Shown here one piece after another: positions 34,805 to 41,416 of a stretch of DNA of 52,021 bases (position 1 is the stretch's first letter; each line of letters opens with the position of its first letter). Both the position numbers and the translations under genes were made by a program. A model generated the notes under the pieces. That model did no database searches. It saw only the letters and a program-made list of their open reading frames with translations, and had not been told where the DNA came from. The stretch is from an uncultured Pseudomonadales bacterium (GTDB taxonomy: Bacteria; Pseudomonadota; Gammaproteobacteria; Pseudomonadales; Porticoccaceae), in NCBI GenBank assembly GCA_938092205.1, contig CALKMW010000008.1, positions 1-52,021 of the forward strand. Reading direction: 5' to 3'.

Positions 34805-36286
34805 ATGACCCCTGAAAAATTCGCAGAACTTGCAGACCAAAACTTCAACCGCATACCGGTTACTCGAGAAGTTTTAGCTGATTTTGAAACGCCGCTGAGC
34901 GTTTATCTTAAGCTGGCCCATGGCCCCAATTCCTATCTTTTCGAATCAATGCAGGGCGGAGAAAAATGGGGGCGCTACTCGCTTATCGGCCTGCAAACCT
35001 CAACTGTACTTAGAGTATACGGTCAGCGCCTCGAAATTATTCGGGATGGTAAGCCTATGGTCGATAGGCATACTGATGATCCTATGGCTGAGGTTGAGCG
35101 TTTCCGTCAGCTTTTTAGTATGCCCGATCTTCCAGATTTGCCTAGATTTACCGGCGGATTAGTGGGCTACTTTGGCTATGATACGGTGCGTTATGTTGAG
35201 CCAAGATTGGCTAAATCTGTACCCAAAGATGAATTGGGGACGCCAGATATTTTATTGATGGCATCTGATGAGGTGGCAATTTTTGATAATTTGTCGGGCA
35301 CGCTAATGCTGGTAGTTCATGTGGATGCCAAGCAAAGCGGCGGCTTGGATCAGGCTAATGCGCGTCTTGATGAGCTACAGCATAAGCTAAAAATGCCTAC
35401 TCCTGAGTTGCCAGAGGCAAAACCATCTAATGATGATCTATCTGAGGCGTCTTTTACCTCTAGCTTTGGTCAAGAGGCATTTCTCAAATCAGTGGGTAAA
35501 ATCAAAGACTATATAATGGCGGGTGATGCAATGCAGGTGGTGCCATCCCAGCGGTTATCTGCACCATTCACGGCCTCGCCATTAAATCTTTATCGATCTT
35601 TGCGGCGCCTAAACCCATCGCCGTATATGTTTTTCCTTAATTTAGATGATTTTCATATCGTTGGCTCGTCACCAGAGGTTCTTGCTCGACTCGAGGATGG
35701 ACAGGTCACGGTTCGGCCAATTGCTGGCACTCGGCGAAGAGGTAAAACTGCAGAAGAAGATTTGGCTCTTGAAAAAGAAATGCTCGACGATCCAAAAGAG
35801 ATTGCCGAGCACCTAATGCTAATCGATCTTGGGCGTAATGATGTGGGCCGTATAAGTCAATCTGGCTCGGTAGAAGTGACAGAAAAAATGGTGGTTGAGC
35901 GCTATTCTCATGTTATGCATATTACCTCCAATGTAGTGGGTGATGTGACTGATAATATGGGGCCAATTGAGGTGCTTAAGGCGACGCTTCCCGCCGGCAC
36001 TCTGAGTGGCGCGCCAAAAATTCGTGCCATGGAAATAATTGATGAAGTCGAGCCAGTAAAGCGTGGTATCTATGGTGGCGCAGTGGGCTATATTGGCTGG
36101 AATGGCAATATGGATACTGCGATCGCCATTCGAACCGCAGTGATTAAAGATGATGTATTGCATGTTCAAGCTGGGGCGGGAGTTGTGGCCGACTCAAAAC
36201 CAGAATTGGAGTGGAAAGAGACAATGAATAAAGCTCGCGCGGTTATGCGTGCTGCAGCCATGGTAGGTGCAGAGGTGAAAAAATGA
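34805..36286 (+). CDS. trpE: Anthranilate synthase component I
   Basis: Converts chorismate to anthranilate with the TrpG glutaminase, the first step of tryptophan synthesis. It has 493 residues. The N-terminal [26 protein letters not shown] carries the feedback-binding LLES-like element (here YLFES). The catalytic half has [13 protein letters not shown] near residue 240, [11 protein letters not shown] near 292, [15 protein letters not shown] near 307 and [13 protein letters not shown] near 336, plus the [13 protein letters not shown] and AGAGVVADS segments. It overlaps trpG by 4 bases and is preceded by the leader peptide region. Regulation by attenuation is inferred. Confidence 0.97.
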
Positions 36287-39517: not shown

Positions 39518-39551
39518 TAATTTTATGTGTAAGGTATTAGGGGCTAATACA

Positions 39552-39965
39552 ATGAAAGCAGTAGTAAAGTGGGTAGACGGTGTGATGTTCGTCGGGGAGT
39601 CTGGGAGTGGGCACTCGGTTGTGATGGACGGCGCGCCAGAGCAGGGAGGCAGAAATATGGGTGTACGCCCAATGGAGATGCTTCTTCTAGGTTTGGGCGG
39701 CTGTGCTTCCTATGATGTTATTGCTATGTTGAAGAAAGGTCGTCAGCAATTTGTGGAGTGCCGGGCAGAAATTGAGGCAGAGCGCGCTGATGCAGTGCCA
39801 GCGGTATTTAGTAAAATACATATTAATTTCATAGTTAGCGGAAATGACTTAAAAGAAAAGCAGGTTAAGCGTGCGGTTGACCTATCGGCTGAAAAATATT
39901 GCTCCGCTTCAATTATGCTTGGTGCGGCGGGCGTTGCCATGAGTCATAGTTACGAGATTCAATAG
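39552..39965 (+). CDS. OsmC family protein (YhfA-like)
   Basis: A 137-residue OsmC/Ohr fold protein; the track's ATG at 39525 adds nine residues. The ATG at 39552 is preferred because AGGGGC lies about 10 bases upstream and MKAVVKWVDGVMFVGES matches the YhfA start. The two family cysteines are in LGLGGCASYDVIAML and SAEKYCSASIMLG, suggesting a thiol peroxidase-like site, though YhfA proteins have no proven substrate. In E. coli yhfA also adjoins crp, in agreement with the divergent crp here. Downstream lies the non-coding interval with the two candidate small RNAs. Confidence 0.87.
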   Translation: MKAVVKWVDGVMFVGESGSGHSVVMDGAPEQGGRNMGVRPMEMLLLGLGGCASYDVIAMLKKGRQQFVECRAEIEAERADAVPAVFSKIHINFIVSGNDLKEKQVKRAVDLSAEKYCSASIMLGAAGVAMSHSYEIQ

Positions 39966-39980
39966 AGGGTCAAAATTTAG

Positions 39981-40081
39981 GCAAAAAAAAGGGAGCCAAA
40001 GGTTGGCTCCCTATAAATTCTTTGGATGACTCGCAAAGAGGGGTTTGGGCTAGAGAGCGCTTAGGTAGCTATCTCTCTAGG
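39981..40081 (-). ncRNA. Candidate small RNA A, about 100 nt
   Basis: Read on the minus strand, a TTGGAT (40117-40112), 18-base spacer, TATATT (40093-40088) promoter would start transcription near 40081. The RNA opens with an 8-bp hairpin (CTAGAGAG/CTCTCTAG, 40080-40050). It continues with an unpaired CCCAAACCCCTCTTTG stretch and ends with a 10-bp terminator stem (AGGGAGCCAA/TTGGCTCCCT as written on plus, 39990-40012) followed by eight U. This is the layout of an Hfq-type small RNA. No coding gene on this strand is available for the terminator to serve. The same hairpin may also weakly terminate osmC. Confidence 0.55.
39990..40012 (-). terminator. Intrinsic terminator of candidate small RNA A
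   Basis: A perfect 10-bp stem, AGGGAGCCAA (39990-39999) with TTGGCTCCCT (40003-40012), and a 3-base loop. On the minus strand it runs straight into eight T (39990-39983). On the plus strand the tail is ATAAATTCTTT, much weaker, so the main direction is minus. Confidence 0.8.
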
Positions 40082-40168
40082 GCGCGCAATATAATGTTGG
40101 GCTTGATATTAATCCAATGCATTTTGCGCATGTTAGGCATTACTTTTTGTTATGACCTTTGCGTAGGT

Positions 40169-40243
40169 AAAAAAAAGGACCCTGGGAGGGTCCTAAAAAA
40201 ATCCTTTAGCAAGGATTAAGAGGGGTTTGTTACAAATCACATT
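40169..40243 (-). ncRNA. Candidate small RNA B, about 75 nt or longer
   Basis: The minus strand carries GTGATTTGTAACAAACCCCTC leading into two stacked hairpins: AATCCTT/AAGGATT (40217-40200) followed by five T, then AGGACCC/GGGTCCT (40194-40176) followed by eight T. The 12 bases CAAACCCCTCTT (40229-40218) are identical to those in candidate A. A start near 40243 is guessed from TAATAT at 40256-40251; the -35 is poor, so activation may be needed, and a longer 5' end is possible. The region lies divergent from the LysR gene. Confidence 0.5.
40176..40194 (-). terminator. Intrinsic terminator of candidate small RNA B
   Basis: AGGACCC and GGGTCCT pair around a 5-base loop (TGGGA on plus). On the minus strand eight T follow (40176-40169); on the plus strand only A follows. 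This is a clear minus-strand terminator with no coding gene upstream on that strand. Confidence 0.82.
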
Positions 40244-40282
40244 CTTAGACATATTAATTATTAACTTTTAATCTGCCTTGAC

Positions 40283-40306
40283 TTAACGCTGTACCTCTAG
40301 CGCTAA
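40283..40306. promoter_or_regulatory. 24-bp near-perfect dyad, candidate LysR-type operator
   Basis: TTAACGCT (40283-40290) and AGCGCTAA (40299-40306) are reverse complements at 7 of 8 positions around an 8-base spacer. The dyad lies between the LysR promoter (-35 at 40348) and the supposed start of small RNA B (near 40243), with its centre about 50 bases upstream of the latter. LysR-type activators bind dyads in that general position. Binding by the neighbouring regulator is inference. Confidence 0.42.
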
Positions 40307-40347
40307 ATTTACTAAATCTTTTAAGCTAATCATTCATTGCTTTATGG

Positions 40348-40377
40348 TTGATACTATATGCTGCTTCATGCCATAAT
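40348..40377 (+). promoter_or_regulatory. Probable promoter of the LysR-type gene
   Basis: TTGATA (40348-40353), an 18-base spacer and CATAAT (40372-40377) match sigma-70 well; the start would be near 40384. AATGCA and TGCATT (40381-40397) form a 6-bp inverted repeat across the start site and could serve autoregulation. Confidence 0.55.
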
Positions 40378-40435
40378 TCTAATGCATTGTTTGCATTAAC
40401 ATTATGCGTTTTGGTAATAACCTTAGGAAGCGGTG

Positions 40436-41416
40436 ATGAATCTTCAAAAACTGTCTCGACTTGATTTAAATTTATTGGTTTCACTGCAAGCGCTTTTAGA
40501 AGAGAAGAGCGTGACTAAGGCTGCTGAGCGTCTATTTATTACCCAGCCCGCTATGAGTCGCGTTTTGCAACGCTTGAGGGATCAGTTAGATGATCCTCTT
40601 TTTACCAGAACCGGCAACGAATTAGTGCCAACACCAAGAGCTCGGGAGCTACAAATTCGCTTGCCCGGATTGTTAGACACGGTGCTAGAAATGGTTAGCG
40701 AAGGTGAATTCGATCCAGCAACTTATGTGGGCGAAATAAATATTGCAGTGCCAGAATTTGTAGCGATCTCATTAGTTTCTGAGTTAACCCGAGTAATAAC
40801 TGAGCATGCGCCCAATGTTATCTTATCTATTTCAAGTGAAACTGACTCGGTTGAGGGCGAGCTAGCCGAGGGTATATTGGATTTTGCAATTGATGTAGAG
40901 CGCGGAGTCAGTGAGGACATCTCTTCGAAGAGATTAGCCATTTTTACGCCATCAATCTGGATGCGAGAAGGACACCCACTTGCCAATCATGCTGAAGTTA
41001 CGCTTGATGAAATCTTAGAGTATCCCTTTGTGCAATATTACCTACTTATTGCAAAGCGAGTAAGTGCAAGAACCGACGCGCGTTTTGATAAGGCGCTAAG
41101 AGATCTAGGAAGAAAGCGTAAAAAAGCGTTAGTCACCAACCAGCTAATGACAGCAATGGAAACAGTGTGCGGCACCGACTGCCTTATGGTGGCAGCAAAA
41201 TATGGTATGGCGTTAGATCGCGAGATGTATCGAATTGTGCGAAAGCGTTACCCCGCAGGACTTCCTCATGTTGGCACTATCCCAATGGCACTTTTGCAAC
41301 ACAATAGAACCGCAAGCTCACCTATTCACAGCTGGGTGGCAAATCAAGTTGTACAATTAATCAACGGCTGGCAACAAGACCTTGATGCAGACCGAGAAAG
41401 CATTTCTTTAAAGTAA
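40436..41416 (+). CDS. LysR family transcriptional regulator
   Basis: A DNA-binding regulator of 326 residues from the ATG at 40436. The track's GTG one codon earlier is too close to the TAGGAAG ribosome site. The winged helix reads LSRLDLNLLVSLQALLEEKSVTKAAERLFITQPAMSRVLQRLRDQLDDPLFTR (residues about 5-57). The rest is a periplasmic-binding-protein-like effector domain. It holds two cysteines four residues apart (VCGTDC, near residue 245), but these do not match OxyR's spacing. The effector and targets are not known to me. LysR genes commonly control the divergent neighbour, here the candidate small RNAs. It converges with coq7. Confidence 0.9.
   Translation: MNLQKLSRLDLNLLVSLQALLEEKSVTKAAERLFITQPAMSRVLQRLRDQLDDPLFTRTGNELVPTPRARELQIRLPGLLDTVLEMVSEGEFDPATYVGEINIAVPEFVAISLVSELTRVITEHAPNVILSISSETDSVEGELAEGILDFAIDVERGVSEDISSKRLAIFTPSIWMREGHPLANHAEVTLDEILEYPFVQYYLLIAKRVSARTDARFDKALRDLGRKRKKALVTNQLMTAMETVCGTDCLMVAAKYGMALDREMYRIVRKRYPAGLPHVGTIPMALLQHNRTASSPIHSWVANQVVQLINGWQQDLDADRESISLK

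Follow-up and report, generated by a model that had tools for sequence, protein, structure and literature searches.

The minus strand of the lysR-osmC interval encodes two tandem small RNA genes, A and B, in the window (the whole 52,021-nt stretch of Porticoccaceae DNA analysed here). The C-rich seed ACCCCTCTT and a strong terminator are common to both units, and a near-identical 48-nt promoter/operator precedes each of them (Table 1). The conserved gene pair, its seed, its stems and the shared operator can be read directly from the sequence, as can a small open reading frame (ORF) in relatives and the hfq gene. The two genes probably produce Hfq-type, trans-acting small RNAs that are switched by a LysR-type regulator, block Shine-Dalgarno (SD) sequences and descend from a dual-function RNA.

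In the proposed mechanism, the divergently encoded LysR regulator probably binds the same operator at each unit's own promoter. Each RNA would present a C-rich, anti-SD-like seed (ACCCCUCUU), followed by one hairpin or two and then by the U8 terminator. Hfq would bind both RNAs, and the seed would pair with G-rich ribosome-binding sites and lower the translation of those mRNAs, a blocking step that is proposed by analogy. The unit itself would derive from a dual-function RNA in which an ORF for a small membrane-type protein was followed by the seed and then by the terminator.

Table 1. Features of the lysR-osmC interval and the genes beside it, in window coordinates
Feature	Positions	Strand	Remarks
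Flanking OsmC-family gene, convergent to unit A	39525..39965	+	PF02566; kept as neighbour in most relatives
Small RNA gene A (about 99 nt, predicted)	39983..40081	-	covariance model match 40055-39984, E 1.1e-6; MFE -36.6 kcal/mol
Intrinsic terminator, copy A, U8	39983..40011 (stem 40012-39990)	-	double changes in several pairs
C-rich seed, copy A (CAAACCCCTCTT)	40036..40047	-	identical 12-mer
5' hairpin, copy A (CTAGAGAG...CTCTCTAG)	40050..40080	-	similar hairpins by eye in some relatives
Promoter A: TTGGAT 40117-40112, 18 nt, TATATT 40093-40088	40088..40117	-	predicted start near 40081
Operator/promoter element, unit A (CATAACAAAAAGTAATGCCTAACATGCGCAAAATGCATTGGATTAATA)	40107..40154	-	same element as unit B
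Small RNA gene B (core conserved at 40237-40169; primary transcript of about 178 nt, predicted)	40169..40346	-	covariance model match 40237-40169, E 8.7e-17
Intrinsic terminator, copy B, U8	40169..40194	-	compensatory changes in 8/8 pairs across 88 sequences
Hairpin AATCCTT-GCTA-AAGGATT, copy B	40200..40217	-	helix of 6 bp; pairing in 98.3% of cells; double changes in 4 pairs
C-rich seed, copy B (CAAACCCCTCTT)	40218..40229	-	ACCCCTCTTAATCC invariant in 36 copies
Promoter B: -35-like TTAGAA 40382-40377, 18 nt, -10 TATAGT 40358-40353	40353..40382	-	predicted start near 40346
Operator/promoter element, unit B (TTATTACCAAAACGCATAATGTTAATGCAAACAATGCATTAGAATTATG)	40372..40420	-	13-61 nt upstream of lysR start codon; precedes every unit in relatives
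LysR-type regulator, divergent; would activate units A and B	40433..41416	+	PF00126, PF03466

Organization of the Two Units

A first-pass annotation of this DNA had described two minus-strand terminators (40012-39990 and 40194-40176), each stem followed by U8, and the same 12-mer, CAAACCCCTCTT, at 40047-40036 and 40229-40218. Both descriptions are correct. The two terminators are the only strong ones between positions 36000 and 44500, and the 12-mer has no further occurrence in the 1.27-Mb assembly.

Transcription of both units is predicted from their promoters and terminators. For copy A, the promoter places the RNA start at the 5' hairpin (start near 40081, hairpin 40080-40050), in agreement with the annotation. 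Copy B also has its own promoter, of the same design, which probably sets the start near 40346 and not at 40243. The primary RNA of copy B would therefore be about 178 nt long, or it may be processed to a form of about 65-75 nt.

Copy A folds far better than its shuffled versions (z -4.3) and copy B moderately better (z -2.9). The 12-mer had been described as unpaired, which is true in part. In the predicted fold of copy A its final four bases pair with CAAAGA, so that eight of the twelve are free, and in the long transcript of copy B about half are unpaired. The 5' hairpin of copy A finds no support in a consensus fold of 21 sequences. In copy B, the hairpin AATCCTT-GCTA-AAGGATT stands before the terminator as a second hairpin.

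The units could also be cis-acting elements, either attenuators or bidirectional terminators for neighbouring genes, as their location between convergent or divergent genes might suggest. This reading is very improbable. The units face away from lysR and converge on osmC, and hence the minus strand offers no gene immediately downstream that they could control. Moreover, every unit has its own promoter and operator, and the arrays contain from one to four complete units.

Conservation of the RNA

At the DNA level, the element was detected in 34 of 56 genomes, and these all belong to the genus of the window. Going by the names on the matches, this genus falls in the SAR92 clade of the Porticoccaceae. 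The gene order coq7 - lysR - [B - A] - osmC - crp is found in most genomes with the element; the OsmC-family gene serves as a synteny marker and is not proposed as a component of the system. A covariance model made from 36 B-type copies matches 49 of 50 genomes of the genus, including all 30 that are well assembled. At least two RNA copies occur in 44 genomes, counting the matches listed, and three occur in G068 and G007.

The flanking genes, the hairpins and the seed are all conserved in related genomes. The annotation had named the opposite outcome, loss of the hairpins and the 12-mer beside retained flanking genes, as a reason to abandon its proposal. The annotation was thus right about what is encoded, a tandem pair of small RNA genes that have a seed in common.

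The conserved segment is not exactly the shared 12-mer. In B-type copies it is ACCCCTCTTAATCC, 14 bases that are unchanged in 36 of 36 copies, and A copies vary around ACCCCTYCTTTG.

Compensatory changes are extensive in the stems. Among 88 distinct sequences, 98.1% of the cells in the two helices hold standard pairs and 12 of 14 pairs show double changes, in an alignment that was fitted to the structure and is hence biased in its favour. None of 500 shuffles paired as well, and sliding the partner by one column lowers pairing to 60-67%. Despite the structure-fitted alignment, the terminator changes are obvious by eye, for example GGACCC/GGGTCC, GGGGCCC/GGGCCCC and GGGACCT/AGGTCCC.

Exact matches to the core pattern, with one genome taken per species, carry in 46 of 47 cases the names SAR92, HTCC2207, Porticoccaceae, Cellvibrionales, Pseudomonadales or Gammaproteobacteria. 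The remaining match (JAJISJ010000008.1, 2664-2685; L128) lies in an archaeal metagenome-assembled genome (MAG) labelled Thermoplasmatota, and is likely to be contamination or chance. A third copy of the RNA core was seen on another contig of G025 (G025:C49:3233-3302; L174), with ACCCCCCCATTAATCCTATATAGGATT and a terminator; its seed is apparently changed.

Matches of the model outside the family, in a search of the whole order (L064, L066-L068, L070-L082), proved to be plain terminators without the seed, or chance. A match in G418, which is labelled as another family, lies on a contig (G418:C43; L172) that is a near-copy of a G413 contig (G413:C26; L169). It is therefore treated as mis-binning: near-identical contigs in different families probably represent one mis-binned MAG. 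The element had no match in a plasmid collection.

Neither the window nor seven related loci gave an Rfam match at gathering score. The mmgR/suhB family (RF00519) scored 19.9 of 41 bits and ncS54 (RF02871) 20.2 of 43 bits, both below the gathering score. These weak matches and one to RF01697 stem from terminator-like hairpins.

A Small Protein in Relatives

In most relatives, a membrane-type small ORF of 34-40 aa lies between promoter B and the seed and has a ribosome-binding site. It reads MTLVY..IGFTGLAGAAIAKDDF... and ends 19-93 nt before the seed. Among 32 distinct versions, the omega-like ratio is 0.12 and differences by codon position number 2336/491/4901; the ORF thus encodes a genuine protein. 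Its first half is hydrophobic and may be a membrane anchor. The first-pass annotation overlooked this ORF in the relatives' same predicted transcript, along with the shared operator and the link to LysR. Searched with a profile of the small protein, 392 genomes from the order and 369 from the class gave no convincing match outside the family.

Neither the small ORF nor a remnant of one is present in the 5' part of unit B in the window genome, and several related lineages also are without it. The window genome is best read as having lost the ORF while keeping the RNA alone.

The elements might be merely the conserved 3' ends of small-protein mRNAs, that is, an untranslated region plus a terminator, with the C-rich stretch serving mRNA stability or termination. 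The position of the seed behind a real ORF in the same predicted transcript of most relatives is what this explanation would expect. However, the ORF is absent from both window units and from one of the two units in most relatives, and these units nevertheless keep the seed and terminator. Termination also does not need an invariant, partly unpaired 14-nt segment, and the terminator stem varies freely by compensation. The 3'-end explanation is unlikely.

Operator and Regulator

The 18-nt spacing of the promoters accompanies a shared regulatory element. In the full interval of 30 relatives, an element close to ATTACCAAAACGCATannnTnATGCAAAcAATGCATTtGgATTATG followed by a -10 box precedes each unit, and the -10 box (TATATT or TATAGT) keeps an unchanged distance from the operator. 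The operator core ATGCNNNNAATGCATTNG lies at 40396-40379 in unit B and is found only there and in unit A. Of 48 genomes, 47 have it, normally in exactly two places and almost never away from this locus. Extra operator matches in G014, G033, G063, G064 and G066 fall inside coding sequence.

The operator of unit B is directly upstream of lysR. A GCAT-N7-ATGC arm is followed by AATGCATT beside the -35 box, an arrangement that resembles the usual LysR-type layout. Because of this position and layout, control by LysR is the natural inference. Both units would be controlled by LysR, with autoregulation; the proposed binding rests on position and co-occurrence. Against NCBIfam, the LysR protein matches no equivalog at cut-off, the nearest being BsrA at 109 of 480 bits.

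Sites for two other regulators were also sought in the 3-kb locus. No Fur box with three or fewer mismatches was found. Seven weak CRP sites compare with 9.4 expected by chance, and none stands out.

Arrays in Other Genera

LysR orthologues with 46-70% identity are present in all eight genomes tested from other Porticoccaceae genera; at 1e-40, eight other families gave none. In the other genera examined, they are accompanied by units of this kind. C-rich pyrimidine seeds stand ahead of terminators in distant genera (CTACCCCTCCTAACC, TCTCCCTCCTATTT).

The arrangement differs from genus to genus. Genus g23 has one or two ORF-free units with CTCCCTC-type seeds. In genus g24 the arrays reach four units, and every unit has an operator (AATACATT-like core), a -10 box, a small ORF (M.IM..MF.ISGLLGSAIA.DDLK), a C-rich stretch (CTACCCCTCCTAACC, CTACCCCCTCCAATC) and a terminator; the seed has decayed in one unit. 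A small ORF is followed by an A-like RNA in genus g25. In genus g26, a single A-like unit stands beside lysR, and a single unit with an ORF lies elsewhere.

The genome G230 has four tandem units between lysR and osmC (G230:C1:2858300-2861800; L214), each with operator, small ORF and terminator. Each also has a C-rich stretch, except the second, which has lost it. Dispersed copies in the same genome (L209-L213) consist of a highly similar small ORF (FTVTGLLVSAIAADDLKAAR), a CTACCCCC-type stretch and a terminator; L213 has the small ORF and lacks the C-rich stretch. Upstream of the dispersed copies stands another promoter (CTACTTAACATTG...CCATAATGG), and the AATGCATT operator is absent. Some are flanked by repetitive GC-rich sequence, and these dispersed copies may be mobile or repeat-borne.

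The ancestral form was probably an array of dual-function RNAs under a dedicated LysR regulator, since one relative has four units as well as dispersed copies of the small protein and C-rich RNA, and since the small ORF and the C-rich RNA mostly travel together. Alternatively, the small ORF may have been gained. As far as tested, array units are restricted to the Porticoccaceae, and they probably derive from, or alternate with, dual-function RNAs.

The balance of these observations leans towards an undescribed, family-wide riboregulatory system of SAR92 and other Porticoccaceae. In it, a dedicated LysR would control a tandem array of one to four dual-function RNAs that combine a small membrane protein with an anti-SD-like small RNA. 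Single units could lose the protein and be left as small RNAs alone, as in the window, or units could disperse, as in G230.

Targets and Hfq

Small RNAs whose targets are purine-rich ribosome-binding sites typically have a C-rich seed before a terminator with a U-tract. Pairing of the seed with such sites, as the first-pass annotation suggested, is plausible. The seeds here resemble the anti-SD of 16S rRNA (ACCUCCUUA). The hfq gene is present in the window genome (G000:C47, E 4e-30) and in 47 of the 48 genomes searched in total.

Ahead of start codons, the full seed complement, AAGAGGGGT, shows no clear excess. It has 34 matches before ATG, several of which are the RNA genes themselves, versus 22 for the reversed pattern. 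Whole-genome target prediction covered one relative, G018. In its start regions, k-mers of the seed complement are not enriched beyond other purine-rich k-mers, and across the genome predicted duplex energies are no stronger than for shuffled seeds. The top duplex, at the start of an IS-type transposase, is no stronger than shuffled seeds can give.

None of the best single target candidates is conserved past close relatives. The SD of a phosphate-selective porin O/P gene (PF07396) consists of AAGAGGGGT and so matches the seed perfectly over nine bases in G018 (L332) and G017 (L333). The orthologue in G034 (L334) has lost AAGAGGGGT, and the porin is therefore only a weak candidate. A LysR gene with a perfect nine-base match has it in three close relatives only.

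The C-rich stretches might not block SD sequences at all. They could instead capture another RNA, or else a protein that binds RNA, as decoys or sponges, with tandem copies raising the dose. Amplification to three or four tandem units would suit such a role, as would a target enrichment that is undetectable, but the U8 intrinsic terminators and the presence of hfq fit ordinary Hfq small RNAs. Further, known small RNAs use C-rich seeds to pair with ribosome-binding sites (PMC8672173, PMC5362039). A decoy role is quite improbable.

Significance

SAR92 is a common coastal ocean clade, and a literature search found no work on its small RNAs. Dual-function RNAs are, in most cases known to us, single genes. 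The SAR92 system is instead modular, a tandem array in which units with the ORF and units without it stand next to each other. The order of events, from small-protein mRNA to pure small RNA or the reverse, can therefore be tested directly within one family. Such tests are practical, as there are isolates with sequenced genomes (HTCC2207, MOLA455, H231 and H921).

Comparison with Known Systems

PrrF1/PrrF2. These tandem duplicate small RNAs of Pseudomonas are controlled by Fur. The first-pass annotation had drawn the comparison, and the duplicate design is indeed common to both. The window locus differs in its LysR-type setting, its lack of a Fur-box-like site in the 3 kb searched and its lack of an Rfam match.

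NmsRA/NmsRB. In Neisseria, two similar small RNAs in tandem use anti-SD motifs and have an Lrp gene nearby; they are under stringent-response control, and lrp was shown not to matter (PMC5362039). Tandem siblings with anti-SD-like motifs and a nearby regulator gene are features of design that recur in the window. The sequence differs, the window has no Rfam match, and the passages used here describe no small ORF for the Neisseria RNAs. The resemblance is one of likeness and not of membership, because what is shared is the design, with no sequence relation seen.

SgrS/SgrT. This dual-function RNA of enterobacteria is activated by a dedicated transcription factor, SgrR, and its base-pairing part is kept while the ORF is found in only a subset of species (PMC8672173). 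A dual-function RNA with a dedicated regulator, and a pairing part that outlasts the ORF, are points of likeness to the SAR92 units. SgrS is, as far as is known, a single gene, whereas SAR92 units are tandem, and the sequence differs (no Rfam match here).

VcdRP. In Vibrio cholerae, VcdRP is a dual-function, Hfq-bound RNA with a 29-aa ORF, a conserved pairing region that contains four consecutive cytosines, and an intrinsic terminator. The four cytosines are required to repress several mRNAs at their translation starts, and the single gene is repressed by CRP (PMC8672173). ORF-bearing SAR92 units share this order of parts with similar spacing, and the window units have four consecutive cytosines in the pairing region, followed by the terminator. 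Unlike VcdRP, the window units have no small ORF upstream of the seed, although most relatives do. SAR92 units further differ in forming tandem arrays of one to four, in sharing an operator beside a LysR gene and in often losing the ORF. By analogy, the SAR92 units may work like VcdRP and like sibling small RNAs, a likeness that is kept apart here from family membership.
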